Below are positions 32,829 through 62,707 of a stretch of DNA of 64,000 bases, in pieces. How positions within the stretch are numbered: the stretch's first letter is position 1; the number at the start of each line of letters is the position of its first letter. Under the pieces are notes generated by a model. The model was not told the origin of the DNA. It saw nothing but the letters and a program-made list of their open reading frames with translations, and ran no database searches. Origin of the DNA: Nitrospirota bacterium (lineage in GTDB: Bacteria; Nitrospirota; JACRHL01). The stretch is from the NCBI GenBank assembly GCA_029858285.1, contig JAOUFN010000006.1:1-64000 (forward strand), given 5' to 3'. Made by a program: the position numbers and the translations under genes.

Positions 32829-34514
32829 TCACGCCGACGGTGGACTGCCCCTCAGGGCCCGCAGAATTGCCTCCTTGCCGCGCAGGCCGCTGGCCTCGAT
32901 CAGGGCCGCCGGGGGGATGGGCACGCCGCTGGCGGCCAGATTGGCCAGGGTGCGGAACTCTTCCTGCCGCACTGCCACGGTGTCGGGGAACTCGGCCACC
33001 ACAATGTCCACATCCAACGCCGCCAGGTGGTTTTCGGTGCGGACAATCTCCCCCAGACGCGGATCATCCTCCAACTCGGGGGGGATGGCGCCGGTCTCCC
33101 GCAGGATTTCCTCACGCAGGGTAACGGGCCGGTTCAGGCCGATCCACGCCGGGGCTTGCGGATCGTCGGTCACGGTCACCCAGCGGGCGGCGGTCCAGAA
33201 CTGGCGGATGCGGCCCCACGCCTTGCGGTACAGACGCTGCTGCCAGCCGCGCAGGGTGTCGAACAGCGGTCCCAGTTCCACCTGTCCCCCCTGCTGGCGC
33301 ATTTGCAAGGCCCGCCCGGAGGCGGCATCGAACTCCCGCCCGGAGAGGGCGGCGGTACCGCCCACGGCGTCGATCTCGCCTTTGGCCTCGGCCAGTAACT
33401 GAAACTGGGCGGCGGCCATGTCGCCGGTGGGCAGCAGTTCAAACTGCATGCCGGGAGTAGTCTCCACCCAGCCGTCGGGACGCGCCAGCTCCCGGCGGGC
33501 GGCGGCCACGTCCTCCACCGCGCCGCGCTCCGAGCGCACCTGGCGCACCGACAGCAGGTGCAGGGCCTTGGAGCGGCGCTTGTTGATCTCGTCCTGAATG
33601 CCGATAAGCTGGCGCACCGCGCCGTAACGTTCGCCGTCGCGGCTGATGAACGCGGCGCACAGCACATAGGGGTCTTCCGGATTGCCCTCGTCGTCGCGAT
33701 AGGGACTGTCCACGGGCCCGCGCAGCAGACCACCCCGACAGAACACCGCCTGCCGCATCTGGCCGTCCTCCCGGTACCAGATTTCCACCACCCGCACCCG
33801 GCGGCGGCCGCTGTCGGCCCAGCGGGAAGGGGTATCGGCAAAGGCGCCGCCGACAGCCTCGGCGCCACCGTGCAGGGACGCTTCCAGCTCCGCGTGGCGA
33901 TCGGGAAACTTGGCCTGGGCCTCGTCCTGGTCCATCCAGATCACTTGGCCCCGGTAACGGGCGTCCTCCAGGTCCCGGCGGCGGGCGTAGGGATCGACAA
34001 AAAAACGTTCCCAGTGGATGGGGTTCAGGGTGACGCGGGTGCCATCCCGGGGGGACGTTTCGACCACCACCTCGGCGCAACCGGTCCCCTCGATGAGCAG
34101 GTTTTCAAACACCTCGGAGCGGATGTCGTCGAAGCGGTTGCTGTCCAGCACGTAGCGCAGGGCATCCCCGGCCGCGCGGGCGGCGGCTTCGTCGGCAGGG
34201 TTGCGCGGCACGCAGCGGGCGGCGGTGCGCATCTGCCGCTCCAGCCCCAGCAGGTGGTCCATCTTCGGCTTGATGCGGTTGACCACGATCGGGGCCTGAC
34301 CGCGCGCCTGCAACTCCGCCGCCTCGGCGGCGCTCCACTGCTTGCCATCGTAGTAATCACGGTCGCGGCAGGCGCGTTCGCGGGCGGATTCGGCAGCGCT
34401 GGCGGCGGCCTCGAACCACCCCACCAGCCGGGTGAGCAGGGGCGGGGGCGGGGATTGGCGGCGGGGGGTGGATCTGGCAGAGCGTCTGGCAGGGCGGCGG
34501 GTGACGTCGGACAT
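32829..34514 (-). CDS. Phage portal protein, P22-like
   Basis: A 561-residue protein with typical P22-type portal features: ACRDRDYYDGKQWSAAEAAE at the N-terminus, then LDSNRFDDIRSEVFENLLIE followed by GTGCAEV. The sequence around IHWERFFVDPYARRRDLEDA is a hallmark, and the C-terminal half carries DEINKRRSKALHLLSVRQV. The portal is the dodecameric ring through which DNA enters the capsid. CAGGAG lies 6 bases before the ATG. It is last in a minus-strand packaging operon; the next genes that normally follow (scaffold, capsid) are absent, and a chromosomal lipoprotein lies there instead. Confidence 0.9.
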   Translation of the reverse strand: MSDVTRRPARRSARSTPRRQSPPPPLLTRLVGWFEAAASAAESARERACRDRDYYDGKQWSAAEAAELQARGQAPIVVNRIKPKMDHLLGLERQMRTAARCVPRNPADEAAARAAGDALRYVLDSNRFDDIRSEVFENLLIEGTGCAEVVVETSPRDGTRVTLNPIHWERFFVDPYARRRDLEDARYRGQVIWMDQDEAQAKFPDRHAELEASLHGGAEAVGGAFADTPSRWADSGRRRVRVVEIWYREDGQMRQAVFCRGGLLRGPVDSPYRDDEGNPEDPYVLCAAFISRDGERYGAVRQLIGIQDEINKRRSKALHLLSVRQVRSERGAVEDVAAARRELARPDGWVETTPGMQFELLPTGDMAAAQFQLLAEAKGEIDAVGGTAALSGREFDAASGRALQMRQQGGQVELGPLFDTLRGWQQRLYRKAWGRIRQFWTAARWVTVTDDPQAPAWIGLNRPVTLREEILRETGAIPPELEDDPRLGEIVRTENHLAALDVDIVVAEFPDTVAVRQEEFRTLANLAASGVPIPPAALIEASGLRGKEAILRALRGSPPSA

Positions 34515-34624
34515 GAGTTCTCCTGAAGACGGTGACGCGGGTCTCGGGGGCGCGGGGCAGGCCAGCGGGGGGGACGCCGGAATGCCAGAGTTATATCCCC
34601 CTGCCCCTGCCGCCGGGTTGCGTT

Positions 34625-34675
34625 CGGGGTGGATGTGGCGAATGGTGCGGATGTGGCGGATCGGGCGGATCGGGC
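34625..34675. repeat. Degenerate 9-bp tandem repeat between TerL and portal
   Basis: Units such as GATGTGGCG, GGTGCGGAT, GTGGCGGAT and GGGCGGATC follow one another. Similar short repeats lie ahead of TerL (36165-36215) and ahead of the operon (38480-38560). They may be polymorphic spacers; no function can be assigned. Confidence 0.5.
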
Positions 34676-34681
34676 TGCCGA

Positions 34682-36100
34682 CTACGACAGTCGCCAGCCG
34701 GGGTGGGGTTGGTCCCCGAAAAGTCTTTCCCAGCGGTCTCCCCGTGCGCCGCGACCGGCGGAACTGGTCCACGGGCGGCTCATGCAGGCATAGCGGGCCT
34801 CGTCGTAGGCGTGGTCCTCCTGGGTGGTGTCCACGTCCTCCGGGTCGTGGGGGCACAGCACCAGGTCGGGCACGGTGCGCAAAAAGCCGTTGCGGCAGGT
34901 GGAAAACGCCAGCAGCATGGGCCGTCCGTCCAGCCCGGTGAGGCGCGAGCGCATCTCCTGAAACCCGGCTTTACGATCGTTGGTGGCGCGGCGCAGGATC
35001 ACCCCGTGTTCAGCCATGCGTTCGGCCACGGTGGGGCCGTCGTGGCGGCCAAACACAGCCGGGTCCGCCACCGAATAGGCGATGCGTTCGTCGTCGGCCT
35101 CCCGTTCGCGAATGCCCCGCGCCACCTGCTCGCTGGTCAGGCGCAGGCCGTGGTCGGGCTTGCCGTCCCAGCCGTACCACTCCCGGTAGCGCACCAGCGC
35201 CCCTGCCAGGATGCCGTCCACCGCGCCGTCCGACACCGCCCACCAGCCCACGGAAAACGGTTTTGAACTGCCCCAGTCCAGGGCGCGAAAGCGAGTCCAG
35301 CGCGGGGGCACGGCGAAGGGTTCGATGACGTGGCGATCGGCCCGCCACATTTCGAAGGCTTGTCCGGCCACCACGTCCCAATCGCCGTCGCGCAGGGCAC
35401 GCACCAGTTCTGCGGTGCCCAGGCCGGAGAGACGGTCCAGATACTCGGGGTCGCGTTCCAGCAGCGTCGGGTTGTCCCGGGCGCGGGCGGGGATGTACTG
35501 GCGGCGCATGCCGCCTTCGGGCTTGGGGGTGCGCCAGATTTTCAGAGGCTCCGCCGGGGTGACGAACGCCGCCTTTACCCACTGGTGTCCCACCGATCCG
35601 GGGTTGCTGGCGCACTCGATGCGCGGCAGGCGGTGGGCCAGGGCGGCGGCCACCTGAAGCCCTCCCAGGCGCACGCGGGCGCGCAGAAAACGGTACTGGT
35701 GGGAACTGAAATGGGTCAGTTCATCCATCAGCAACACATGAATTTCGGCTCCTTGATACTTGCTCAGATCGCCGTCGTGTTGCAGGTGACAGAGGCGCAG
35801 GGTGGAGCCGTTCCAGAAGCGGAACTCCCCGGATTGCTGGACCAGACTCACGCGCCGGGCGGCAGTAAGGGGGCCGAGCAGTTCCAGCAGGCTGCCGGGA
35901 CCGCGCAGGTGGTTGGATTTGAGCTCCGGCAGGGAGCGGCGGAACAAAAACACCTGGCAACCGGGTACCGCCAGGCACCAGCGGATGGCCGAGACGCGCA
36001 GCAAAAAACTCTTTCCTCCCCCGGCGGCGCCGCCATAGAGGAGTTCGGTGGCCGGGCTGCCGAACGCAAGGGCCTGTTTGGGGTGTAACGCCACGCGCAT
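34682..36100 (-). CDS. Phage terminase large subunit (TerL)
   Basis: A 472-residue packaging motor. The ATPase domain has Walker A GGAAGGGKS at residues 23-31 and Walker B VLLMDE at 122-127. The nuclease (RNase H-fold) domain begins at ALDWG with Asp275 and a second acidic residue Asp346 in YSVADPAVFG. It is similar in layout to Terminase_6 proteins of Sf6/P22-type phages. It lies between a 55-residue membrane protein gene and the portal gene. The start ATG 36100 gives the standard distance to Walker A; an upstream extension of the frame is not conserved-looking. Confidence 0.92.
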   Translation of the reverse strand: MRVALHPKQALAFGSPATELLYGGAAGGGKSFLLRVSAIRWCLAVPGCQVFLFRRSLPELKSNHLRGPGSLLELLGPLTAARRVSLVQQSGEFRFWNGSTLRLCHLQHDGDLSKYQGAEIHVLLMDELTHFSSHQYRFLRARVRLGGLQVAAALAHRLPRIECASNPGSVGHQWVKAAFVTPAEPLKIWRTPKPEGGMRRQYIPARARDNPTLLERDPEYLDRLSGLGTAELVRALRDGDWDVVAGQAFEMWRADRHVIEPFAVPPRWTRFRALDWGSSKPFSVGWWAVSDGAVDGILAGALVRYREWYGWDGKPDHGLRLTSEQVARGIREREADDERIAYSVADPAVFGRHDGPTVAERMAEHGVILRRATNDRKAGFQEMRSRLTGLDGRPMLLAFSTCRNGFLRTVPDLVLCPHDPEDVDTTQEDHAYDEARYACMSRPWTSSAGRGARGDRWERLFGDQPHPGWRLS

Positions 36101-38683: not shown

Positions 38684-39985
38684 ATGTTTCGATACATCAC
38701 AGTACTGATCATGGCCCTTGCCACCATTGCCCTGACCGGGACCGTGGCGGGAGCCGATTGGGGGGATGAGGACGAGGCCGGACCGGAGACCGCAACGGCG
38801 ACGGCGGCGACACCAGCGACAGCGGGGAAGGTGAACTGTGGCCAGTTGTCCACCTTGTCCCAGAAAACCGAGATGTGGGTCCAGCAGGCCGAGGAAAAAC
38901 TCGAAATGAACGACCTGCGCGGGGGCATGTGCGACCTGCAACAGGCCCTGGTGGCGGGAAAGCGCGACAACGACATTTACGGCCTGGCGGTTGCCACCTA
39001 CAGCATGGGCAACCTTCTGCGCCGCACAGGCGACATCCCGCGCGCCACGGACACCTACAAGCGGGCAATGGCACTGTTCGAAGCGCTGGGCAACCGCGCG
39101 GGGCTGGCCAACACCGCCAGCACCCTGGCGGCCATACACGCAGGTCGCAAGGAATACCCCGAGGCCCTCACCCTGTACAAACGCGCCCTGAACGAGTACG
39201 CCTCGCTGAATCACCCCGGCAACCAGGCGGTGGCGTTGGACAACATCAGCGGCATCTACATGCAGTTGAATCAGTATTCCGATGCAGAAATGGCCCTGGA
39301 GCGGGCCGTGTCCCTGCACGAGCGGGCCGTCAACCGGCAAGCGGCCGCGGACGATTACCGGCGGCTGGGCGAGGCGCGGGAGGCGCGGGGTGATTTGGCC
39401 ATTGCCGACATCGCTTACAACAAGGCAGTGGAAATCAACGACAGCCTGTCCAACCTGCTCGGCAAGGCGCAGGTATACGCCAGCGTGGGCAGGGCTGCCG
39501 CCGCCCGCAAGGACGTGAAACGGGCCCAGGATTATTACACCAGGGCCGCCGCCATCGACGAGGCGCTCGGGCACCATGACCTGGCCGGGATGGCCAGCAA
39601 GGATCTGGCGGGGCTGCTGCGCTCCACGGGCGATCTGGACGGAGCGGTGGCGATGTACCTGAAGGCGCAGGAGCATTTCGAGGCCGCCAACCGTGCCGAT
39701 GCCGTGGCCTCGGTGATGACCGCGATTGGTAACATTTATTCCGGACAGGGCAATCTGGCGGGTGCCGAGGAAATGTACCTCAAGGCCCTGGTCACGTATC
39801 AGACGCAGAACGACAAGCGCCACAGCGCCGCCCTGCTGCACAGCCTGGCCAGTGTGCAGGCGCGCAGTGGCGATCCGGACGGGGCGCGAACCTCGGCCCG
39901 GCAGGCCCTGGAACTGTATCAGGCAACGGGGAACCGCAAAGGGGTGTCCCAGGTGCAGGAAACCCTGGCGAAACTGGGCGGCTGA
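38684..39985 (+). CDS. Secreted TPR protein
   Basis: A 433-residue protein with a signal peptide (VLIMALATIALTGTVAGA, cleavage near residue 24). It has a low-complexity acidic/Thr-Ala segment to about 48 and then about eight consecutive TPR units of the 40-residue Clu/NPHP3-like type, for example ATYSMGNLLRRTGDIPRATD and GNIYSGQGNLAGAEEMYLKA. Such arrays bind proteins. GGAGGGACGG lies upstream of the ATG. It is the first of three same-strand TPR genes (40060 and 40907 follow within 1 kb). Confidence 0.88.
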   Translation: MFRYITVLIMALATIALTGTVAGADWGDEDEAGPETATATAATPATAGKVNCGQLSTLSQKTEMWVQQAEEKLEMNDLRGGMCDLQQALVAGKRDNDIYGLAVATYSMGNLLRRTGDIPRATDTYKRAMALFEALGNRAGLANTASTLAAIHAGRKEYPEALTLYKRALNEYASLNHPGNQAVALDNISGIYMQLNQYSDAEMALERAVSLHERAVNRQAAADDYRRLGEAREARGDLAIADIAYNKAVEINDSLSNLLGKAQVYASVGRAAAARKDVKRAQDYYTRAAAIDEALGHHDLAGMASKDLAGLLRSTGDLDGAVAMYLKAQEHFEAANRADAVASVMTAIGNIYSGQGNLAGAEEMYLKALVTYQTQNDKRHSAALLHSLASVQARSGDPDGARTSARQALELYQATGNRKGVSQVQETLAKLGG

Positions 39986-40059
39986 CCCGGTCGGGGGAGC
40001 CCACTCCCTGCAACCCCATCAGGCAACCTCACCAGACAAGCCCACCAAGAAACACACGA

Positions 40060-40716
40060 ATGCCGAATCACACCCGTTTCGCCGCCCGCAAATTGGCCAC
40101 CGCCGTCCTCACCCTGGCGATCGGCACGGGGTTATATCTGGTCCATGTGTCGATGCAGCCCACCCTGCTCAAGCGCACCACCCCATTGGAGCCGCTGGTG
40201 GAACTGGAGCAGCGCGGCACCGCCATGCTGGCCGAGGGCGACGTGGACGGTGCCATCCACACATTTGGCAAGGCCCTGATCTACGCCAAGAAAACCGACC
40301 ATCAGGAATCCATCGCCCGGGTGATCCGTCACCTGGCAGACGCCTACGCCAAGCAGGGCGACATGGTACTGGCCACCGCCGAATTGCAGAAGGCGGTGGC
40401 CATCAGCACCACGCTGGGCGACCGCTCCGGCCTGTTGGAAGGATATCGCCGCATGTCCTGGATTTACCTGCAGCAGGAGGATTTTGACGCCGCCGAACGG
40501 TCGTTACGCCTGGTGCTGGGTATTGCGGAACAGATCGGGGAACCGACTGCCATCGCCGAGGCCTGCGTCGATCTGGCCGAGGTGCTGGAACTGCTGGGTC
40601 AGATGGAGGAGGCCGAAACGCTGTACCGGCGGGCTTCCGAACTTCAAGGACCGGCCGCCGAAGCCGCCGGACGCCTGTTGCGGCTGCGTCTGCACCGGCC
40701 GGTGCGGGGGGTTTGA
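40060..40716 (+). CDS. Membrane-anchored TPR protein
   Basis: A 218-residue protein. The N-terminal hydrophobic segment LATAVLTLAIGTGLYLVHVS (about 11-31) is a likely uncleaved signal anchor. About four TPR units follow, such as AIHTFGKALIYAKKTDHQES and AEVLELLGQMEEAETLYRRA. It lies 74 bases downstream of the previous TPR gene. It would present its repeats in the periplasm. The repeat consensus resembles that of both neighbours, suggesting duplication. Confidence 0.85.
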   Translation: MPNHTRFAARKLATAVLTLAIGTGLYLVHVSMQPTLLKRTTPLEPLVELEQRGTAMLAEGDVDGAIHTFGKALIYAKKTDHQESIARVIRHLADAYAKQGDMVLATAELQKAVAISTTLGDRSGLLEGYRRMSWIYLQQEDFDAAERSLRLVLGIAEQIGEPTAIAEACVDLAEVLELLGQMEEAETLYRRASELQGPAAEAAGRLLRLRLHRPVRGV

Positions 40717-40906
40717 CCTGCCGGGACCTTCTTCCATCTCCGATTCGCTGGTTCCAATCCCGCCGTCGTGTGCCGACGGGCATTTTCCACCAACCTCCGC
40801 TGCCGGGCGCCCGCTCAAGTGAACCCCGGTTTGCGCCGAAGGGAGTGCCAGCCAGGCCTCTCCGTCCCCCCGGGAGCGGGTCTTGAACCGACGAGAGGCG
40901 CGCGCC

Positions 40907-42274
40907 ATGCCCGAACCCCGCGGCCCGGATTACGGGCCGTTTCCCGCATCTGATCCCTCCCTTCCACTTCCAGCCGGTCCCCCGGCCGGAAGCGGCGACG
41001 CCGTATCGGTACGCGCCGAGATGGACCGCCTGCGGAGGCAGGCCGAGCAGCACCCGGATGACCTGGAGGTGTGGAGCGTTCTGGGCACCACCATGGCCCG
41101 TTACGGGGCGCTGAGGGAGGCCACCGACGTGTTTCAGGTGGTGTGCCGGATCGCCACCGACGCCGGTAACTGGCTGGGCCTGGCCCAGGCCAACGGCGGG
41201 TTGGCCTGGGTGGAACACATGCGCATGAATCTGGACTCCGCCGAAGCCTACTACCTGGGGGCAATCCGCATCTGCTCCGAACACGGACTGGATGCCGGGA
41301 TGCACTCCCAGTGGTACGGGCGGCTGGGCTACCTTTACGAATCCCTGGGAGAGCTGGAACGCGCCGAGACGGTCTACCGGCAGGCTCTGGAACTGGCCGA
41401 GAACGCCGGTTTGCCGGAGCAGGTAGTACGCACACTGGGGGACCTGGCCGACGTGTATCGTGGCCAGGGGGTGCCGGAAAAAGCCGAAGAGGCAGGTTTG
41501 CGTGCCCTGGAAATCGCCGCCTCACTGACCGGGGAAAACGACAAGGAAACCGACGATACCGAGGTCCGGGTCCTGGCCGATATGGCCCTGTGCGAGGCGC
41601 TCGGGCACCGCGAAAAACTCGGTTTCGACTATTTCAGCTACGGCGTGATGTATGAGCTGGAGGGAGAAATCCAGCGCGCCGAGGACATGTATCTGGAGGC
41701 GCTGGCGGTGTTTTCCACCGCGGGAAACCGACACGGCATGGCCGAGTTGTACTCCCACATCGGCGCCCACGCCTTTGTGCGTGGAGACTGGGAACGGGCG
41801 GCGGACATGTACGGTCAGGCCCTGGAACTGGAAACCGGGCTGGGCCGTGATTGGGGGGTGGCTCGGGCGTGCCGGGGACTGGGCATGGTCTGCCAGCGCA
41901 CCCGGCAGTGGCAGCAGGCCCGGGATCTTTACGAGCGCTCCCTGCTGCTGGTGGGGACGGACGGCCCCCGTGCCAAGGTGGCCGCCTTGTGCGGCGATCT
42001 GGGGGTGGTGCTCAAGGAGGTGGGGGAAATCCAGCGGGCGGAGGGCATGTACCGCAACGCCATGGAGTTGGGGGAGGGGGCCGGTGCCTGGGAGGTGGCG
42101 GCCCGCGCCGCAGCGGGGTTGGGCATTCTGTATCTGGAAACCCGGCCATCTGCAGAGGCGGAGGCGCGCCCATTACTGGAACGCAGCCTGGCCATGTACC
42201 GCCGCCTGGAGGACGAGGCCATGTCCACACGTCTGGAACAATTGCTGGAATTGCTCGACAAGCCCACCGAATAA
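40907..42274 (+). CDS. TPR protein, probably cytoplasmic
   Basis: A 455-residue protein without a signal peptide. A Pro-rich N-terminus of about 35 residues precedes about ten TPR units, including YLYESLGELERAETVYRQAL, YELEGEIQRAEDMYLEALAV and GVVLKEVGEIQRAEGMYRNA. The consensus is close to that of its two upstream neighbours, which are exported, so this may be the cytoplasmic member of the set. GAGAGG lies 8 bases before ATG 40907; a TTG at 40883 in the same frame is an alternative start. It converges with the minus-strand gene at 42329. Confidence 0.85.
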   Translation: MPEPRGPDYGPFPASDPSLPLPAGPPAGSGDAVSVRAEMDRLRRQAEQHPDDLEVWSVLGTTMARYGALREATDVFQVVCRIATDAGNWLGLAQANGGLAWVEHMRMNLDSAEAYYLGAIRICSEHGLDAGMHSQWYGRLGYLYESLGELERAETVYRQALELAENAGLPEQVVRTLGDLADVYRGQGVPEKAEEAGLRALEIAASLTGENDKETDDTEVRVLADMALCEALGHREKLGFDYFSYGVMYELEGEIQRAEDMYLEALAVFSTAGNRHGMAELYSHIGAHAFVRGDWERAADMYGQALELETGLGRDWGVARACRGLGMVCQRTRQWQQARDLYERSLLLVGTDGPRAKVAALCGDLGVVLKEVGEIQRAEGMYRNAMELGEGAGAWEVAARAAAGLGILYLETRPSAEAEARPLLERSLAMYRRLEDEAMSTRLEQLLELLDKPTE

Positions 42275-42328
42275 CGCATCGGGCCCCTCGGCCCTTCCGG
42301 TGCGCCTTCCTGCGGGGCCTTGCATCCC

Positions 42329-43351
42329 CTAGGGCATGTGGTATTTTTCCCGTAACCAGTCGCGCAATTGCCTGGCGCGTTCCGTTTCGCCCGCCGCCTC
42401 GAACAGGGCAATGGCCTGCTGATAGGTGGCGACGGCACGGGCCGGATCGCCAAAGCGCTCATGGAAGCGGGCGATGATCTCCCACTGCTGCCCGACTGCC
42501 TGGCGGTCCCGGGTGGTTTCCAACACCTGGGCGGCGCGGTAATACATGCCCTGGGCGAGGGTTTTTTCCAGCACATCGGCATAAATTTTTGCCAGATCGT
42601 TCATGCGGGCAGCCAGTTCGTAGGGATTATCTCCGTCGCCTTTTTCCTGGTGCGCCTTGAGTGCCCTGGCGCGCTGCTCCAGCAACTGGAGCAGGGGCAC
42701 CAGCGCGGTGTAGCGGGCTTCACCGTCGCCGCTGGTCCGACGCAGGACGTACTGCCAGGCATTCTCCGCGGCCGCCAGATCCCCTTGCTGCACCAGCACC
42801 CGGGCCAGTTCGCCGAAATCGGCCAGATTGTCCGGGGCGTGCCGGGTGGCGGCCTCGGCGGCACGCCGCTCCAGAGGGGCGTCTTCCGTCAGGCGCGCCA
42901 GTTGCAGCAACACCCGCGCTGCCTGGGCGCCTTCCGGATTCTCGTGCTTGCGGGCACGGGTGTCCAACTCGCCAGTGAGAAGGTCAATCGCCGCTCGGGG
43001 GTCGCCCTGTCGCAGTGTGTGCAACACACCGGACCCCGAGGGGGCGCCGGGATTGGTCCGCAACGCCTCGGCCACCGCCAATACGCGGGACTGGACCACT
43101 CTGGCTGGTGGTGCCTCCCCGGTGGCCCGGGCGGCATTCAGAACGGCGGCGGACAGGCGGTCCATGTCACCCTGCGAAAGGGTGTTGTCGGCCAGCGCCG
43201 GCACCACAAACGTCAGGATCAGCACGGACAGGAACAGGGCAGAAGGGATGCCGGACAGGCCTCGCCGAAGCGAGGCAAACATCACGGGAATTTTCGCTGG
43301 AATTTTCGCGCGAAAAAGCCACGGGACCGTTGGGAAAAACCTTTGAATCAT
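42329..43351 (-). CDS. Exported helical-repeat (TPR-like) protein
   Basis: A 340-residue protein. The hydrophobic export segment is SALFLSVLILTFVVPALADN (cleavage near residue 55 with this start). The mature part is all-helical and TPR-like, with a clear last repeat FGDPARAVATYQQAIALFEA. The start at 43351 has GGAG properly placed (CTGGAGATTCC); a shorter start at 43282 would give a more standard signal peptide but lacks a ribosome site. It is divergent from the ClpP-like gene, with 78 bases between them. Confidence 0.7.
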   Translation of the reverse strand: MIQRFFPTVPWLFRAKIPAKIPVMFASLRRGLSGIPSALFLSVLILTFVVPALADNTLSQGDMDRLSAAVLNAARATGEAPPARVVQSRVLAVAEALRTNPGAPSGSGVLHTLRQGDPRAAIDLLTGELDTRARKHENPEGAQAARVLLQLARLTEDAPLERRAAEAATRHAPDNLADFGELARVLVQQGDLAAAENAWQYVLRRTSGDGEARYTALVPLLQLLEQRARALKAHQEKGDGDNPYELAARMNDLAKIYADVLEKTLAQGMYYRAAQVLETTRDRQAVGQQWEIIARFHERFGDPARAVATYQQAIALFEAAGETERARQLRDWLREKYHMP

Positions 43352-45798: not shown

Positions 45799-45882
45799 GC
45801 CCCGGGAGGGCCGGATAATGTATCCAGCCCCGGAGGGCCGGATATCAAATCGAAGCCCCGGAGGGCCGGATATCAAATTGAC
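45799..45882. repeat. 28-bp tandem repeat, three copies, no spacer
   Basis: Units are at 45799-45826, 45827-45854 and 45855-45882. Each starts GCCCCGG(G)AGGGCCGGAT, and the last two share GGCCGGATATCAAAT. It is intergenic, upstream of the SEL1 gene on the minus strand and of the large fusion gene on the plus strand. The GATATC core and repetition would fit iterated protein-binding sites. Beyond it, 45883-46231 holds an inverted repeat of 10 bp with a long loop (46002-46067) and an A-run, and no gene. Confidence 0.85.
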
Positions 45883-46231: not shown

Positions 46232-49200
46232 ATGGGTAAGGCAATCGGCTATTTCCGCGTGCCGGCAACAGGTACGGGCACTCCCGCACCGACTCCGGCG
46301 GAAGCGGCAATCCGAACCTGGTGTGGCAACCACGGCCATCAGGTGGTGGCATTGATGAGTGACGCCGATCGCGCCAGCGACGGCCTCACCATGGCTCTTG
46401 AGGCTGCGGTAAAAGCCTCGATGCTGGTGGTGGACAGTCTCGACAGCCTGAGCCAGGGTGGCATCGCTCCGGCGCAGGTGCTGGAAAAATTGCTGACCGC
46501 CGGTGCGCAGTTGGTTTCACTGCACGAGCGGCTGGACAGTTCCGCCATGGGACCGGACGCAGCTCGCCAGGCGGTGGGCGGGAGCAAACCGTCCACGGCG
46601 GCAGGGGACGTGCGCATCACCTTCACTCCGGCGGACCCGGTCTCCGCCGCATCCCGACCGTCCGCCGCCGGCGGTTACGACCTGCCGGAAGTCACGGCCG
46701 AGCCGGTTGCGGATGAATATGCGGTTCCCTCCATCACCCTGGAAGACGTGGACCCGAACGAGGCGGCCACCCTTGCCCCCCCCCCCATGTACGGGGCGGA
46801 GGAGGACGCAGGCGTCGTTCCCGGCGAGGACGGGGAAACTGTCTCTACCTGGTCGCTGGATGAAGGCGACGCGGACGCCCCTGCAGATGAGCCAATCGGG
46901 CCGGTGGTGACCGCCGATCAGGACGACATCGACGCCATGGTCATGGCGCGGCAGGACAGCGTCGCTTCGGCGGCAGCGGCTGGCACTGCTCCGGCTGGAC
47001 AGTCGGACATTGATTTTCTGTTTTCCATGCAGGCGGCACGCAAACCCAAAGAGGCCGCCCAAACGCCCCAGGAACCATCCACCCCCGAACCGCAGACTCC
47101 GTCTGCCTCGTCCAGCGATGACGGGATGGCGGGAATGCTGGAACTGGGCGGTCCGGGGAGCGAGCCGGCGGGGGAAATTACCCTGGACCCCGTGCCACCG
47201 GTTCAATCCGGCAGCAGCGGTGAATCGGGCGGTGAATCCGGAGAGGGGATCACCCTGGACGGCATGCCTGACACGGATGCCGACGAGTTGGACACGCCAC
47301 AAATATTCGCGGACACGGGAGAGGCCCAGTCCCCGGCGGAAGGGCAGACCAGTGTGGATTTCATGCTGGCCATGAAAGCCGCGAAACCGGCCGGCAGTTC
47401 CGCATCGTCGACCGGTACGTCCGGTGACGATTTGGCGGACGTCGGCACGAATTCCGACATGGATTTCGGCACGGATGCCGACGCGTCCGACACACCCCGG
47501 ATATTTGCGGACACCGGAGAGGCCCAGTCCCCGGCGGAAGGACAGACCAGCGTGGATTTCATGCTGGCCATGAAGGCCACGAAATCTGCAAAATCAGCCA
47601 GCAGCAACCCGGAGTCGCCCGGGGGGGACGATTTTGGCCTCGACGACGATATGTTCGGCAGCGATGCGGACTTGGAAGAGGTCACCCCGCAAGGCTTTAC
47701 CGACAGCGGCGAGTCGGTCACCCCCGCCGAAAATCAAGCCGACGTGGACTTTTTGCTGGCGACGAAAAAATTGCGCCAGCCGGGGCCCCCGGTTCCGGGC
47801 ACGATGCCACCCCCGGCGGCGCAATCGATGGATGCATTGCCGGGGCTGTCCGGCAACGACACACCGGACATCGCGGTCCCTCAGCCCCCGGCGCAGCAGG
47901 CATCCGCCTCACAGGCGGGCCGCACGCCCGATAGCATGACAGCCAAAGATCGTGAGGGCATTGAGCGTTACCTGGCCGAGATGCCCCCCGAGGATGGTCT
48001 GGGCTACAAAGTTCCGCCCCGGGGCTCTTCGCGGGCGTCGAAGTCTGCCGCCGAGGAAGTCTCTGCCGCAGCCCCCGATGGCGACGACGACCCCGGTGCG
48101 GCCAATCCGTTCGAGGATCTGGCGCGGGAAATGGCCGGTGAAGCCGCCCGCGAGATGGCCCAGGAACTGACCCGCGGGATCGTTCCAAGGTCCGGCGTGG
48201 CCCCATCCGGCGAGGGCCAGGACGGAGCCCGATTGACCCCTCTGGCGCAGGGCGGTTCGCGGCAGGTTCATGGTGAGATCGAGGACACCCCCAAGACTTT
48301 TACTCCCGTGGCCCAGACGGGCAAGGCTGTACGCGAGGACCCGCACGGCATCAAGGTGCCGCCGCCTCCGGCCGGGGTTCCCCTGAAAACGATGGATCGG
48401 CGGTCGAGCCCGCTGGAACAGCTTTTACTGCGGGAGGCTCCCAAATCCTATTCGCCCCTGGCCAACGTTCCGGGTATGACGCAGGAGGGCGATACGCCGC
48501 CCGACTCGCCGGAGGCGGGTGTGACGGGCGTGGGGGGCGACGCGCCATCCACCCGGTCGGCCAATTCAACGGCCGGCACCGACGACAGTTCCGACGGGGG
48601 AGATGGCCTGCTGTCATTGAAGCCGCTGCAGACCGGTGCCAGCCACATGGTGCATGGCGAAATCGATCTGGAAGTAAAGAGTTTCACCCCCATGGCGCCG
48701 CTGGCCAAAGCGGTGCGGGGGGACGACCCGCCCACCCGGCCGACACAGGAGGCAGCCCCGGAACCACAGGAGCCGTTGCAGGAAAAGGTTGCGCAGGCTG
48801 CTGAGGAGACCGTTTCGCCCCCGCCGCCCTATCAGGGCATTCCTCAGGGGGCGCGAATGGGGGGGGGAGAGATGGATTCCCATCTGGTGGACGTGTCCTC
48901 CATCATTGCCCGTGCCCGCGCGGAGGTGCAGGCCGACATGGGGATCAAATCGCACCCGGTGAGTTCCCCGCCTCTTTCTCCAGCCCACGCGGCGGCGGAT
49001 TGGGTGGCCCCCACGGCCACCCCTGTGGGCGGTCCCGGCTGGACCCCGACCGAGACGGCCGACTGGGATCGCCGTTCGCGTGCGAGGGGCACCCGGTCCG
49101 CGCAGATGTCGGAAGATTCCGGGGGGGCGATGATGCGGCGCCACTCCGATTACACGCCGGTGGCTGATGCGGCCGCCCGTCACGTGGCGCAGGGACATTT

Positions 49201-49906
49201 CAAGAAGGCCATTGCCACCTGGGAGGGGTTCCTGTCCGGCGCCGACGGCCACAACCTGGGCATGGCGATGAACGCCATCGGCGACATTCATGTGCGCCAG
49301 GGCAACGTCACCGAGGCTGCGGACCAATTCCAGAAGGCGGTGGAGGCGTTCGAGAAGGCCGGGTATTACACCAAGGCAGTGGCGACTCTCAAGAAGATCC
49401 ACAAGATCACCCCGCAAAACAAAAAAATTCACCTGCGCACGGGTGAACTGGCAGCCCGCTGCGGACGGTTGGGGGATGCGGTGGAGGCCTATCTGCGGTA
49501 TGCCCGCTGCATGGTGGACCGGGGCGACATCTTTGCCGCGCAGAATATTTTCAACCGCATCCGCATCCTGGACCCCCTCAACGCCCGGCACCGCCTGCAA
49601 TTGGCGGCGGAGTTGCGCGACTTCGGTTTTCTGGATGAATCCGTAGCGGAGATTCTGAACGCCACCGACATCCTGATGGCCGAGGGGCGGCACGACGAGG
49701 CGCAGCGGCATCTGCTGCGCATGATCGACGTCATGCCCACGCATCTGGCCCTGCAGACTGCGCTGGAGCGGGTGGCGAAGGGCGACGCCGCGCCGGTGCC
49801 GGAAGCGCCGGTGGAAGGCGGTATGGCCTGTGCGGATCTCGATCTGGAGACTGACGACGGCAGCATGTGGCACCGGCCCATCGACTCCGACGGCAAAATT
49901 GTCTGA
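46232..49906 (+). CDS. Inactive serine-recombinase domain fused to a repetitive linker and TPR domain
   Basis: A 1224-residue protein. Residues 3-105 look like a resolvase/invertase N-domain: AIGYFRV start, D and R spacing in SDADRASDGLTMAL, LVVDSLDSLSQ and LLTAGAQLVSLHERLDSS. The catalytic Ser position after RV reads Pro (RVPAT) and the DRLSR arginine is lost, so it should be catalytically dead, and no recombinase DNA-binding domain follows. Residues about 110-980 are low-complexity and acidic, with repeated short motifs. One is Q-x-x-(V/I)DF-x-LA-x-K. A second recurring block reads VHGEI...FTP.A...KAVR. The C-terminus (about 985-1205) has five or six TPR units (GDIHVRQGNVTEAADQFQKA). There is no signal peptide, so it is probably a cytoplasmic scaffold. 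Confidence 0.8.
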   Translation: MGKAIGYFRVPATGTGTPAPTPAEAAIRTWCGNHGHQVVALMSDADRASDGLTMALEAAVKASMLVVDSLDSLSQGGIAPAQVLEKLLTAGAQLVSLHERLDSSAMGPDAARQAVGGSKPSTAAGDVRITFTPADPVSAASRPSAAGGYDLPEVTAEPVADEYAVPSITLEDVDPNEAATLAPPPMYGAEEDAGVVPGEDGETVSTWSLDEGDADAPADEPIGPVVTADQDDIDAMVMARQDSVASAAAAGTAPAGQSDIDFLFSMQAARKPKEAAQTPQEPSTPEPQTPSASSSDDGMAGMLELGGPGSEPAGEITLDPVPPVQSGSSGESGGESGEGITLDGMPDTDADELDTPQIFADTGEAQSPAEGQTSVDFMLAMKAAKPAGSSASSTGTSGDDLADVGTNSDMDFGTDADASDTPRIFADTGEAQSPAEGQTSVDFMLAMKATKSAKSASSNPESPGGDDFGLDDDMFGSDADLEEVTPQGFTDSGESVTPAENQADVDFLLATKKLRQPGPPVPGTMPPPAAQSMDALPGLSGNDTPDIAVPQPPAQQASASQAGRTPDSMTAKDREGIERYLAEMPPEDGLGYKVPPRGSSRASKSAAEEVSAAAPDGDDDPGAANPFEDLAREMAGEAAREMAQELTRGIVPRSGVAPSGEGQDGARLTPLAQGGSRQVHGEIEDTPKTFTPVAQTGKAVREDPHGIKVPPPPAGVPLKTMDRRSSPLEQLLLREAPKSYSPLANVPGMTQEGDTPPDSPEAGVTGVGGDAPSTRSANSTAGTDDSSDGGDGLLSLKPLQTGASHMVHGEIDLEVKSFTPMAPLAKAVRGDDPPTRPTQEAAPEPQEPLQEKVAQAAEETVSPPPPYQGIPQGARMGGGEMDSHLVDVSSIIARARAEVQADMGIKSHPVSSPPLSPAHAAADWVAPTATPVGGPGWTPTETADWDRRSRARGTRSAQMSEDSGGAMMRRHSDYTPVADAAARHVAQGHFKKAIATWEGFLSGADGHNLGMAMNAIGDIHVRQGNVTEAADQFQKAVEAFEKAGYYTKAVATLKKIHKITPQNKKIHLRTGELAARCGRLGDAVEAYLRYARCMVDRGDIFAAQNIFNRIRILDPLNARHRLQLAAELRDFGFLDESVAEILNATDILMAEGRHDEAQRHLLRMIDVMPTHLALQTALERVAKGDAAPVPEAPVEGGMACADLDLETDDGSMWHRPIDSDGKIV

Positions 49907-50045
49907 CCCGATCGCCTCCCCGGACTTGCTGACTCCCAATCTCCTGACTCTCGTCACCTCACTTACCACATCGGCTGTCAAATGATTGCCGTGGTGATAC
50001 AGTCAGGGTAGGGGGCTGTCACGGAATGGGGGGAGGGGTGTGGGA

Positions 50046-50831
50046 ATGTTCTTCCATTCATTTCAGGTATCTCCAGGTATCCAGCCGGTCACGCCGACTC
50101 GGGTGCTCGCCCTGGCCCTTGCTGTGGCCATCGCGTTGACACTGTCTGTTGGGGCCGGGCCGGCACGGGCACAGGCTGGCACGTGGGTGCGCCCGGTGAC
50201 GCCGGAGGACGTTGCCCACGCCTTCCAGTGGATCGAATTTTCCGCCCGGCAGGGGATGTCGTGGGCCCAGTACATGCTGGGCACCCTGTACGAAACCGGT
50301 CGCGGCACGCCCGCCGACATGGCGCAGGCTGCCGAGTGGTACCGCAAGGCCGCCGTACAAGGGGAGGCGTCTTCCCAGTATCGGTTGGGCCTGCTGTATT
50401 TCCGGGGTGCGGGGGTGGAGCAGAGCGACGCACTGGCGGTGGAGTGGTTCCAACGGGCGGCGGAGGCCCAGCAACCCGAAGCGCTGGCGGCCATGGGGGA
50501 TTTGAGCGCCACCGGGCGCGGGGTGGTGGTGGATTTGGCGGGTGCGGTCAAAATGTGGAGTGCCGCCGCCGACGCTGGTATTCCAGATGCCCAGTTCAAT
50601 CTGGGCATGGCCCTGGCGCATGGTTCCGGCATCCCCGGTGACCCGGATCGGGCCGCCGACTGGCTGCACCGGGCCGGGCACGGTTTTTTGCAGGCGGGCC
50701 GGGGGGCGGAAGCCATCCGCACCGCCGAAGCAATGCAGTCCCTGTTTCCCGATCACACCCTGACCAGTGATTTTCAGCTTGCCGTGGAGCAGGCGAAATT
50801 CCCTGTGACCAACGGCGGCAAACTGCCGTAA
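50046..50831 (+). CDS. Exported SEL1-repeat protein
   Basis: A 261-residue protein. The signal peptide contains VLALALAVAIALTLSVGAGP and is cleaved near ARAQA (residue 43). Four to five SEL1 repeats follow, such as YMLGTLYETGRGTPADMAQA, YRLGLLYFRGAGVEQSDALA and FNLGMALAHGSGIPGDPDRA. GGGAGGGG precedes the ATG; a GTG six bases upstream is equally in frame. It is the last member of the TPR/SEL1 run on this strand and is followed by a long non-coding stretch. Confidence 0.88.
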   Translation: MFFHSFQVSPGIQPVTPTRVLALALAVAIALTLSVGAGPARAQAGTWVRPVTPEDVAHAFQWIEFSARQGMSWAQYMLGTLYETGRGTPADMAQAAEWYRKAAVQGEASSQYRLGLLYFRGAGVEQSDALAVEWFQRAAEAQQPEALAAMGDLSATGRGVVVDLAGAVKMWSAAADAGIPDAQFNLGMALAHGSGIPGDPDRAADWLHRAGHGFLQAGRGAEAIRTAEAMQSLFPDHTLTSDFQLAVEQAKFPVTNGGKLP

Positions 50832-50944: not shown

Positions 50945-52315
50945 TGGGGTTGGGGCGTTTGCACGTACGGAGACGGGCCCGTACCACCAACGCAGGCACC
51001 CCTCCGGGGAAGGGAGAGCGGGACGGGGGAGGGGGATGTCCGAACTGACGACGCTCCCAGAATCCGGCGCGCACCATGCCCGTCTCCATCCCCATATGGA
51101 GGGCGCGCCGCACCAATCGCCCCCTCCCATTTCGGAGGGGCGGGTTGCATCATCAGGGACTTGCCTCGTCCCGCCGACCCCAAAGGTCGGCCAAGCCACA
51201 CAGCACACGTCGGTGGATTCCCCCTGTTACGCAATATCGATGCCGGGACGGCCGATGCGGTTTAATTGGGAGTATGTACATTTAAAAAACAGTATGTTGC
51301 GTGAAATTTGTGGATTTCCTGGCGTATTTTCCAGGAATCCAGGTAAGAAAACGGTTACCCATGCGGAGCGTTTCTTTTCTCTGGCCCGGCATATTGCGGA
51401 CCGGTATTTATGCGCAAAAAGCAGCTTGAAACCGCGTTAGGAAAACGGTAAAGTGTGAACACCAGCGGCGCAGGTGTTGGTCGCAGCAGGGTCTTTTGTG
51501 GCGATCCAGTCACAGTACGAGAGTGGGGGTGGCCGCAGCGGTTACCTCCTTCGCATGTGCGGCGGCGGACCGGGGCAGTTGCGCGATACCCCCCCACCCA
51601 CCTCGCGGGCGGCCACCGGCCGTCGCCGCACTCTTCCACACCCTGCTATCCGGCGAGCGGCCCTTGGGTTCACTCCGGGGGAGCGACGCCCCGTCCCTCC
51701 TGTTCTCCGTGAAATGATTGCGTGAAATGATTGGTTGTGGGCGCTCTGGCCCTTGGCAAGCTGCGGTTGCCCGCCGCCGTGGGAGCACCCCCACCCCCTC
51801 GCGATGCACCGGGCCGTGCCACGGGTTTTCGGCGAATACGCCAGCGAGAATTCCCCCACCCCAATGCGAAAAGGGAGCGGACCGGCGTGTGATGGCCGGT
51901 CTCGCTCCCTTCGCTTCCCCTCGCTGACCCCCCCTTTTTTTTCGCTCCCCCGCCGGGACCGATACCCCTCTCCAGAGGTGTGATGCGCGGCGGTGGCTGG
52001 ACCCTGATCCCCGCTGGCGGGTGGGGGGGGGGAAGCGTTTGGGGATCGGATGACCCTTGCGGGTCTGTCCGGACCACCGCCGACGCTCACAACGACTTTT
52101 TCGGCCGTTTTTTCGGGAGCTTGAATAAAATCTTACAAACGGTGGGGATATTTTCATGTATCACCATGGGGGTATCGCAGCGACGCGCCATTCCGGGTAC
52201 CTTACCCGCGTGGAGGAACTACGCCGTCCGACCGATCGACCGTTCGGCTCCACGCCGTGGACCAGGGCGCGGGTCAGGGGCCACGGGCCGAGAGGGATGG
52301 GCCAGGCGAATGGAG
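50945..52315. other. Gene-poor region
   Basis: I see no convincing protein gene in 1.4 kb. A 66-codon frame at 51240-51440 (start ATGCCGGG, aromatic and basic, ends LKPR) lies in locally AT-richer DNA but has no ribosome site and no recognisable family. The rest has irregular GC-rich frames in all six phases, several C- and G-runs, and an AT-rich patch at 52095-52160 that may carry the promoter of the membrane protein at 52434. It may be decayed DNA or hold an unrecognised RNA. Confidence 0.4.
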
Positions 52316-52419
52316 CCGAAGGATGGGGCCGAAGGGTGGGGCCGAAGGGTGGGGCCGAAGGGTGGGGCCGAAGGGTGGGGCCGAAGGATGGGGCCGAAGG
52401 ATGGGGCCGAAGGATGGGA
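52316..52419. repeat. 13-bp tandem repeat, eight copies
   Basis: The unit CCGAAGG(A/G)TGGGG repeats eight times without spacing, just upstream of the membrane protein start at 52434. Since 13 is not a multiple of 3 it is unlikely to be coding. Copy-number change would alter the distance between promoter and gene. Confidence 0.93.
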
Positions 52420-52433
52420 TTGACCGTGGCCGC

Positions 52434-53660
52434 ATGACAGGAACACAACGCCATAACCGGAAGGGGCGCAAGCGCGGCGCGGCACGAGCCCTGCCCAGTC
52501 TGCTTGCGTCTGTAACCGGGTGGGCAGGGGTATGGTGGCTGGCGCCGGTGCTGGGGGCGGGTTTTTCTGCGTCCGGCAGGGCGGCGGGCGGAGTCCCCGC
52601 GTGGATGATGTTCGTGGGGGGAATTTGTCTGAGCGTGGCCCTGTGTGGGCTGGTGCTGTCGTGGCGGCTGATGCGCCAGCGAGGGGAGGTGTGGCGACAG
52701 GCCTTGAGTGTGGATGGCTGGTCCCAGTGGGTGTTCGGGCTGTCCGGGGTGGCCATTGCGGCGGGCGTGCTGGGGGGGGAGTGGGCGGCGTCGGCGGGGG
52801 TGGTGCCCGCCCTGGTTCCGGGCATGATGGGGCTGTTTCACCAATTGGGCAGGGAAAAAACCCGCGAACGCCATAAACCCGAGGCGCGGACCCCCGCCGC
52901 GGGTCGGCCCTGGGTGCGTTGCAGTCGCGGTCGCGTGGCGCTGGTGGCGCTGGTGGACATGGGGCTGCTGCTGGCGGGATTGAGCCTGGTGGACTCGGTG
53001 ACCGCGACCCTGCGCATCGGGGTGGGGGATCCCCAATGGGGAATTGCCGCCCTGTCGGTGCTCACCGTGGTGGTATTTGCCTCCCCCGGCGGTTGGTTGC
53101 TGGCGGCGATGCGCGACCCGGATGCCCCCGGCAAGTATTTGGTGGAACGCCGGGTGTTGGGGAGGGAAACAGCCTATACGCTGGTGCTGGGGCTGGTGGT
53201 GCTGGCGGCAGGTGTGGTGTGGCTGACGCTGTGGCCCCACTGGGTGCGGTCCGGCAGCCTGCTGGGCATACGCCTGTGGCCGTCCGCGTTCCTGATCTGG
53301 AACCTGTCCTGGGCGGCCGGGCTGGTTGTTGCGGGATGCGGCCTGTGCCGCACCTGGACCTGGTCCCCGCTGCTGGCAGCGGTGGTCACCGGCGCCGGAA
53401 GCGTGGTGGTGCTGGGTAACCGGGATCTGTGGCTGGTGGGCCTGCCACGGGTGATTGGAAACCACGGTCTGGCCGAACTGCTGACCACCCTGCTGGCGCT
53501 GGCCTTGCTGGTGATGCTGGGGGGAATATGGGCGGCCTTCTGGTTTGCCTGGTTGCGGCTGCTGGGGGAGCCTGATGGCCTCTCCGTTTCCCCGACTTTG
53601 CCGGGACCGGATGTGCCGTCAAAAAAGACGGCTGCGGACCCTCCGTACGGGGAACACTGA
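52434..53660 (+). CDS. Polytopic membrane protein of unknown function
   Basis: A 408-residue protein with a basic N-terminus (RHNRKGRKRG) and about ten hydrophobic helices, for example SVALCGLVLSWRLM, FGLSGVAIAAGVLG, LVALVDMGLLLAGLSLV and LTTLLALALLVMLGGIWAAF. A charged central loop (REKTRERHKPEARTPA) sits near residue 145. I recognise no transporter family signature. The ATG is 14 bases after the 13-bp repeat array and has no strong ribosome site, so its expression may depend on the repeat region. It ends at a hairpin shared with the convergent TPR gene. Confidence 0.68.
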   Translation: MTGTQRHNRKGRKRGAARALPSLLASVTGWAGVWWLAPVLGAGFSASGRAAGGVPAWMMFVGGICLSVALCGLVLSWRLMRQRGEVWRQALSVDGWSQWVFGLSGVAIAAGVLGGEWAASAGVVPALVPGMMGLFHQLGREKTRERHKPEARTPAAGRPWVRCSRGRVALVALVDMGLLLAGLSLVDSVTATLRIGVGDPQWGIAALSVLTVVVFASPGGWLLAAMRDPDAPGKYLVERRVLGRETAYTLVLGLVVLAAGVVWLTLWPHWVRSGSLLGIRLWPSAFLIWNLSWAAGLVVAGCGLCRTWTWSPLLAAVVTGAGSVVVLGNRDLWLVGLPRVIGNHGLAELLTTLLALALLVMLGGIWAAFWFAWLRLLGEPDGLSVSPTLPGPDVPSKKTAADPPYGEH

Positions 53661-60991: not shown

Positions 60992-62707
60992 TCAGTTTGG
61001 TTTGTCTTTTTTTCCGGGCTTCGTGCTGGCCGTCTCGGCGCGCCGGGAATCCTTGGTCTGAGATTTGGACTTAACCCCCTTGGCCGGGGTTTTCTTGCCT
61101 CCGGCGAGCGGGGGGACGGGGGCGGAATCTCCGGCCAGCACCACCCGGTTTCGGCCACCGTTCTTGGCCTGATACAGCGCCCGGTCGGCGGCCTCCAGCA
61201 ATTGTTGCGGGGTGATCGCCGAGGTCATTTGTGGTGAGGCCACGCCGATGGACAAGGTGGTGGAAACGGCTTGCCCGCCCGCGTCCACGGCCATCTGCTC
61301 CGCCTGTTCCCGCAGCCGTTCGGCCAGGGCGAGGGCGTGCTCTCCGGTGGTTTGCGGCAGGATGATGGCCAGTTCCTCGCCACCGTACCGTGCCGCCAGA
61401 TCCACCTTACGGGTGTGCCGGATGACCAGCTTGGCCAATTCGATCAAATATTGATCACCCACCTGATGGCCATGGGTATCGTTGACGCGTTTGAAATGAT
61501 CCACGTCGATCAGCAGCAGGGACAGGGGCAGATCGTAATAGGTCACAGCACGCTGAAATTCCTCTTCCAGGCGGCGATCGAACTGGGAGCGGTTGTAGAG
61601 GCCCGTCAAGCCGTCAAACAGGGCCATCTGTTCCAGCTTGCCCTCGAATTCCTTGCGTTCGGTGATGTCGCGGAAATTCAGTACCATGCCCGCCAGTTCC
61701 CCCTCATGGCCCAGCAATGGAGAGGCGGTCAACTCAACAGGACAACGGCTGCCGTCGCTGGCCAGCACGCTCAGATCCTTCATGGTGAGGGAAGTCTCTT
61801 CCGCCACCACTTCGTACAGGATATGGCGGGACGAGGGGTGTTCCCGGGTGCCGTCCAGGCGCAGCACCTCCTCAATGGAGCGATGCATGGCCTCGTCCCG
61901 GGGGATACCGGTGAGGTGTTCGGCGGACGGATTGATGACCGTGACCGTGCCCTTGCGGTCGGTGGCGATCACCCCCTCGCCCACGCTGCGCAGTACGGTG
62001 AAGATCAACTGTTTGTCGTTTTCACGGGCACGCAGGTTGGCGTCCAGCAGCGCCGATGTCTGGCGAGAGCGCAGCCACTCGAAGCGGAAGAACAGGGCCG
62101 CTGTCAGCAACCCCAGAAGGGTGCAGGTGAAGATCAGCGCCACCTGGGTGCGCACAAAGGAACGAAATTTGTTGTCGATGGCTCGGCGCAGGGCGGCATC
62201 GGTGCGCTGCATGGACAGATTGAACGAGGTCCAGGCACCCTCGAAAGCGGAGTTGGCGTTACCCCCGTGATCTGCTACCTCCCGGTTTATGGCAGAAAGG
62301 TACAGGCGGCGTTTGGCGGCGTCCTGAAACTCGTCCAGGCGTGCCAGGGTGCGGCGCAATTGGCGGTTGACCTCGGGATCGTCGATGGGGGTGATGTGCC
62401 AGTCTCCGTCGTGTCCCCCCTCCAGCAAGGCGGTGGTGAGCCACTCCGACTGCCCCAGATGGGCACGCACCTCCTCGAAGCGGCTCTTGGGATCTCCGGC
62501 CAGAATTTCGTCCAGCACCAGGTGGGCGCGCACCACCTGCACCTCAATTTCAGCCGCGGCGCGCAGTTGTGGCAGGTTGACCTCCTGGATGCGGGAACCG
62601 GTGTACAGGACGTACCCCATCCCTGCCAGCACAAACAGTGTCAGCACTAGGGAAATCACCGGACTGCGCCCGGTAACGGCCACGTTTCTGAATTCGAGGC
62701 CCTTCAT
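60992..62707 (-). CDS. Diguanylate cyclase with periplasmic sensor, PAS and GGDEF domains
   Basis: A 571-residue protein. Membrane helix 1 lies at about 15-35 (ISLVLTLFVLAGMGYVLYTG), then a periplasmic helical domain to about 180, and helix 2 near 190-210 (LIFTCTLLGLLTAALFF). A PAS domain occupies about 230-355 (VGEGVIATDRKGTVTVINPS) and the GGDEF domain about 365-530. The active site is GGEEL at 442-446, and an intact inhibitory I-site RKVD lies at 433-436. It makes cyclic di-GMP and is feedback-inhibited. A Lys-rich tail (GKKTPAKGVKSKSQTKD) ends it. GCGGAG upstream supports the start at 62707. Confidence 0.93.
   Translation of the reverse strand: MKGLEFRNVAVTGRSPVISLVLTLFVLAGMGYVLYTGSRIQEVNLPQLRAAAEIEVQVVRAHLVLDEILAGDPKSRFEEVRAHLGQSEWLTTALLEGGHDGDWHITPIDDPEVNRQLRRTLARLDEFQDAAKRRLYLSAINREVADHGGNANSAFEGAWTSFNLSMQRTDAALRRAIDNKFRSFVRTQVALIFTCTLLGLLTAALFFRFEWLRSRQTSALLDANLRARENDKQLIFTVLRSVGEGVIATDRKGTVTVINPSAEHLTGIPRDEAMHRSIEEVLRLDGTREHPSSRHILYEVVAEETSLTMKDLSVLASDGSRCPVELTASPLLGHEGELAGMVLNFRDITERKEFEGKLEQMALFDGLTGLYNRSQFDRRLEEEFQRAVTYYDLPLSLLLIDVDHFKRVNDTHGHQVGDQYLIELAKLVIRHTRKVDLAARYGGEELAIILPQTTGEHALALAERLREQAEQMAVDAGGQAVSTTLSIGVASPQMTSAITPQQLLEAADRALYQAKNGGRNRVVLAGDSAPVPPLAGGKKTPAKGVKSKSQTKDSRRAETASTKPGKKDKPN

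Follow-up and report, generated by a model that had tools for sequence, protein, structure and literature searches.

A non-catalytic serine recombinase domain fused to an SgmX-like TPR module in a deep-branching Nitrospirota class

We find that a Nitrospirota genome (G000) encodes a protein in which the catalytic domain of a small serine recombinase, deprived of its active site, sits at the N-terminus of a TPR protein. The gene lies in a 64,000-nucleotide stretch of contig JAOUFN010000006.1, which was analysed as a whole and is called the window below (Table 1). Our computational analysis established the recombinase ancestry of this N-terminal domain (N-domain), the loss of its active site, of helix E (truncated or absent) and of the DNA-binding domain, the conservation of the fusion in all four known class genomes, one common origin for the fused TPR modules, and a specific likeness of these modules to SgmX. 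That a recombinase-type domain is joined to TPRs and is inactive can, as a joint claim, be regarded as practically certain. A first-pass annotation, made from the sequence of the window, had proposed a non-catalytic recombinase fold on a TPR protein, and profile, fold, active-site, and orthologue evidence all support it.

Table 1. Features of the fused gene and its downstream neighbour (positions in the window)
Feature	Position	Strand	Basis or remarks
Whole gene	46232..49906	+	1224 aa: pseudo-recombinase domain, linker, TPR module; orthologues in 4/4 class genomes
Inactive serine-recombinase catalytic domain	46232..46585	+	Residues 1-118; PF00239, AF2, Foldseek PDB
RVPAT, Pro11 at catalytic Ser position	46256..46270	+	Alignment with 18 intact relatives
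LDSLSQ, Ser72 and Gln75 at both catalytic Arg positions	46439..46456	+	Alignment with 18 intact relatives
Linker, residues 106-970	46547..49141	+	A/P/G/D/S-rich, repeated short motifs
Linker motif A, first copy (AAAAGTAPAGQSDIDFLFSMQAAR)	46958..47056	+	Sequence; two copies also in G003 orthologue
Linker motif A, more copies, approximate	near 47290-47390, 47485-47590, 47680-47780	+	
Linker motif B, copy 1 (LTPLAQGGSRQVHGE...FTPVAQTGKAVRED)	48230..48340	+	E = 1.1e-6 to copy 2
Linker motif B, copy 2 (LSLKPLQTGASHMVHGE...FTPMAPLAKAVRGDD)	48599..48733	+	Two copies in G003 orthologue
TPR module, residues 971-1200	49142..49831	+	Resembles N-terminal TPR region of SgmX; NF052243 match
Downstream Sel1-repeat gene	50040..50831	+	Syntenic in G003

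Results

The fusion is conserved in four genera

The open reading frame is real: The start at 46232 is common to all orthologues, whose N-termini read MGKAIGYFRVP, MGKAIGYFRVP, MSKAIGYIRVP, and MLRVLAYIWSVS, and the same start and open frames in four genomes rule out a recent pseudogene or an assembly artefact. The small, deep-branching class to which G000 belongs comprises four genomes in four genera, and each of them holds an orthologue, with lengths of 1265 aa in JAOUMB01 (G003), 601 aa in JALWRU01 (G002), and 403 aa in JACRHL01 (G001), all Nitrospirota MAGs. When a profile of the N-domain was run against 396 Nitrospirota genomes, matches with E below 1e-50 came only from the four class genomes; the remaining ones were much weaker and lay in frames with lengths typical for small or large recombinases. 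No fusion outside the class was seen among the best 20 loci, which were retrieved, and those outside the class that we read encoded intact recombinases. The closest free relatives among the matches listed were intact small Nitrospirota recombinases, at E about 1e-19. As judged by eye, the G000 protein has neither a signal peptide nor a transmembrane segment and looks cytoplasmic.

The N-domain is a serine recombinase by profile and by fold

The first 105 residues had been read as following the resolvase pattern, and both profile searches and structure prediction bear this out. The Pfam Resolvase model PF00239 matched residues 4-104 with 24.7 bits in a whole-protein scan and with 29.2 bits in a genome search, above its curated cut-off of 23.3 bits, and the three orthologues matched it independently (E = 4e-9, 2.5e-6, and 0.04). 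Against solved structures, a profile built from the N-domains of all four orthologues retrieved the Gin, Tn3, and gamma-delta recombinases at E about 1e-4; a phmmer search of the PDB with the single N-domain had instead yielded designed Pizza proteins, which we rejected as repeat-inflated. Among plasmids, the N-domain retrieved two recombinases only, both as weak matches.

The AlphaFold2 model of the N-domain, built from four orthologous sequences with no templates, was confident (mean pLDDT of 81.7), and at E<=0.001 all eight of its Foldseek matches in the PDB were serine recombinases, the best being the TP901-1 integrase catalytic domain (E 4e-5, TM 0.71) and IS607-type TnpA. Receiver domains, which are the other obvious candidate for a fold of this topology, did not occur among the 50 Foldseek matches listed. 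In a second AlphaFold model, of the 403-aa G001 protein, the TPRs were good and the N-domain, modelled without aligned relatives, was poor. Since the N-domain of the short orthologues is misplaced when whole proteins are aligned, each domain was aligned separately. Like the small serine recombinases (gamma-delta/Tn3 resolvase and Gin/Hin invertases), whose fold it shares, the N-domain contains the GY.RV and LVV strands. Taken as a group, these domains thus score and fold as serine recombinases, and none of the outcomes that had been named as speaking against this assignment (no resolvase score, a different fold, or homologues with an intact Ser) came true for the group.

Active site, helix E, and DNA-binding domain have been lost

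Two alterations had been described at the outset, namely RVPAT at the nucleophilic Ser and LDSLSQ at the arginine motif, and both are as stated. Ser, Arg, and Arg are invariant in all 18 intact recombinases from the same phylum at the three aligned catalytic columns, which we take to be Ser10, Arg68, and Arg71 in gamma-delta numbering. The four fused proteins display P, P, P, and S at the Ser column, S, S, F, and a gap at the first Arg column, and Q, A, P, and A at the second; compared to small serine recombinases, they thus have the Ser replaced in three cases and both Arg lost in all four. Homologues with an intact Ser had been named as a possible objection: Three of the four proteins have Pro, while G002 has a Ser close to this position (YIWSVST); in the alignment, this protein shows Ser where Arg8 is expected, and both of its catalytic Arg are missing. 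To judge from the aligned letters, G002 may keep the catalytic Ser through a one-residue insertion, without the arginines.

As first annotated, no recombinase DNA-binding domain follows the N-domain in the whole-protein profile scan. The end of helix E, with its ERT motif, is lost in all four fused proteins, and the first half of this helix is retained in G001 and G002 and absent in G000 and G003. Serine recombinases generally have a long oligomerisation helix after the catalytic domain (PMC4513852), and the dimer interface of Sin consists mostly of helix E, which also connects the catalytic and DNA-binding domains (PMC2428073). Because helix E is mostly absent, the usual dimer via this helix is unlikely, which weakens the earlier idea of a dimerising module. 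A core dimer through helices B and D, the different arrangement described for IS607 TnpA (PMC6188088), is possible.

The retained fold and the Ser near the catalytic position in G002 would also fit a domain that still acts on DNA, e.g., by pairing with an active recombinase subunit or by serving as a DNA-tethering module. We consider this highly improbable, given that both catalytic Arg are gone throughout, that neither a DNA-binding domain nor the end of helix E is left, and that the 2.56-Mb G000 genome contains no PF00239 match at E<=0.001 other than the N-domain. A protein-binding role, rather than one on DNA, is what we would expect with good confidence.

The linker varies widely and the N-domain evolves fast

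The about 870 low-complexity residues described after the N-domain are largely as reported, with ~865 residues rich in A/P/G/D/S in G000; they do contain repeated motifs, some of them conserved in the nearest orthologue. These motifs, shared by G000 and G003, read TP..Q.DIDFL.AM.A.R (motif A) and LKPLQ.G...MVHGE...K..TP....KAVR.DD (motif B); they look like putative binding motifs, and motif B was not found elsewhere in the G000 genome. Linker lengths range from ~30 residues in G001 via ~200 in G002 to 865 in G000. Since ~30 residues suffice in G001, a long linker is not essential, and the term "large scaffold" used earlier suits the G000 protein with its long linker and not the compact G001 form.

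Between G000 and G003, where synonymous sites are near saturation and dN/dS ratios are hence rough, the N-domain is 49.5% identical with a dN/dS of 0.45, nearly the rate of the linker, while the TPR part is 66% identical with a dN/dS of 0.27. The constraint on the N-domain accordingly appears modest, because it evolves nearly as fast as the linker. Its rate, together with the progressive loss of helix E in G000 and G003, is what one would see if, after a single fusion, the TPR part alone mattered and the recombinase domain were a decaying passenger that drifts toward loss. We think this improbable, as the domain is in frame and N-terminal with its core fold retained in four genera, is predicted to fold with confidence, and displays a dN/dS below 1, and as the compact G001 form keeps it while the linker there was lost or never present.

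The TPR module resembles the N-terminal TPRs of SgmX

The TPR domain reported after the linker was recovered; its likeness to SgmX, which is the top NCBIfam match in all four fused proteins, had gone unnoticed. In G000, the module matches positions 6-205 of SgmX (model NF052243) with 48.7-52.5 bits. Scores of 48.7-61.4 bits across G000, G003, and G001 and of 41.2 bits in G002 are far below the SgmX equivalog cut-off of 1800 bits, and only one TPR module is covered. TPRs can moreover converge, which counts against the SgmX reading. The model matched none of six further window proteins with TPR or Sel1 repeats and, at 1e-8, none of 14 control genomes; in the four class genomes, it retrieved the fused protein and a two-module paralogue, with two weaker matches besides.

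In G000, this paralogue (G000:C2:4205-6592) has a TPR module at either end and a low-complexity stretch between them, the same layout as described for SgmX (PMC7519303). It has no recombinase domain, and its TPR module is ~40% identical to the fused one. In a tree, the four fused TPR modules are monophyletic (support 100/99) and joined to the class's own two-module paralogue, a topology from which we consider a duplication of the paralogue's N-terminal module, followed by one fusion, to be the likely origin.

In Myxococcus, SgmX activates T4aP through its N-terminal TPRs, binds FrzS with its middle part, and binds MglA via its last three TPRs (PMC11580455); once these last three are removed, its polar location no longer depends on MglA (PMC7668184). 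The fused TPR module resembles the N-terminal region of Myxococcus xanthus SgmX (positions 2-205) within its pilus-activating part. Unlike SgmX, the fused protein has a single TPR module, placed C-terminally, and an N-terminal pseudo-recombinase; a C-terminal module of the MglA-binding type is absent from the fused proteins and present in the paralogue.

Pilus and polarity genes are present in the class and distant from the fused gene

PilB was found above cut-off in all four class genomes. MglA is likewise present in all four, with 83-100% identity over the matched part. The G000 MglA matches Myxococcus MglA structures at E = 1e-95; its gene (G000:C16:52213-52806; L085:1462-2058, - strand) adjoins an MglB-like Roadblock gene and a TPR gene. 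Weak Arf matches were first suspected to be EngB, a candidate dropped after reading of the ORF gave MglA, as confirmed against solved MglA structures; the Arf match in G002 is HflX-like by sequence. Of 41 Nitrospirota genomes sampled, 30 have MglA. Across these 41, an SgmX-like protein and MglA occur together in 28, neither occurs in 6, and one only in 7 (2/5, the five having an SgmX-like protein without MglA); this co-occurrence yields a Fisher p = 0.002, or 0.003 among more complete genomes, in statistics that ignore kinship.

No pilus or mgl genes lie beside the fused gene, whose conserved neighbours encode Sel1/TPR proteins and, as judged by eye, a ClpP-like membrane protein. That these neighbours do not point to pili is the main weakness of the pilus reading. 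The same architecture could serve another pathway, as a generic envelope or exopolysaccharide adaptor working with its Sel1/TPR neighbours, the likeness to SgmX then reflecting shared ancestry. The TPR and Sel1 genes on either side are syntenic in G000 and G003, no pilus genes lie nearby, and the SgmX match is confined to about 200 positions, all of which is consistent with such an adaptor. We nonetheless hold it to be rather unlikely: The Sel1 neighbours look exported, with N-terminal signal-like sequences (by eye), while the fused protein, again by eye, has no signal peptide or transmembrane segment, and SgmX is the best family match in every orthologue.

The window also holds a TPR-repeat gene cluster at 38684-43282 (38684-39985, 41021-42274, and 42329-43282), syntenic with G003 from 41021. 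About 10 kb upstream of the fused gene, genes for a P22-like portal protein and a terminase large subunit (32829-36100, - strand) mark a prophage or its remnant. A 28-bp unit is repeated in 2.9 tandem copies at 45799-45878 (GCCCCGGAGGGCCGGATAACAAATCGAA), about 350 bp upstream of the fused gene, and a 13-bp unit in 8.4 tandem copies (96% matches) at 52310-52418; the latter lies within the 5' part of ORF 52257-53660, a gene that probably starts further downstream. A PAS-GGDEF diguanylate cyclase is encoded at 60992-62707 (- strand).

Discussion

As the best explanation of these data, to which we give slightly less than an even chance, we propose that the exapted pseudo-recombinase provides input or docking for a cytoplasmic adaptor that is derived from SgmX and has no MglA-binding module. 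The dead catalytic core of a small serine recombinase, fused to a duplicate of the SgmX-like N-terminal TPR module, would make up this adaptor. Its TPR module would dock on the target of the SgmX N-terminal TPRs, i.e., the pilus base or PilB recruitment; lacking the C-terminal TPRs that bind MglA, the adaptor would act without MglA-GTP. The pseudo-recombinase would bind another protein and thereby place or tune the adaptor, and the linker, when long, may contribute extra docking motifs.

Such binding would parallel FrzS, which binds SgmX through a receiver domain without phosphorylation residues (PMC11580455) and likewise provides a degenerate, non-catalytic docking part in the SgmX pathway. 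The parallel is one of analogy only: FrzS has a receiver fold and a coiled coil, whereas the fused protein has a recombinase fold and TPRs. A role in pilus or polarity control is, from the sequence evidence, a tentative assignment that we put somewhat below an even chance. More doubtful still is the full chain, in which the fold of a site-specific recombinase, no longer catalytic, has taken on signalling or docking and supplies an SgmX-type pilus/polarity adaptor of Nitrospirota with input that does not depend on MglA.

In our search, which was confined to open-access literature, no TPR protein with a non-catalytic serine recombinase domain came up. The passages on serine recombinases in a review of exapted mobile elements present these enzymes only in catalytically working roles, in flagellin switching and excision (PMC8987985). 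Likewise, no report of an MglA-SgmX-like axis in Nitrospirota was found in the literature searched, and our data suggest such a pilus/polarity axis there. The pair of fused protein and two-module paralogue makes the role of each module testable. In the fused protein, what was once a DNA enzyme apparently serves as an ordinary protein component; if this is true, a dead recombinase domain that is kept vertically as part of a protein widens the possible fates of mobile-element enzymes.
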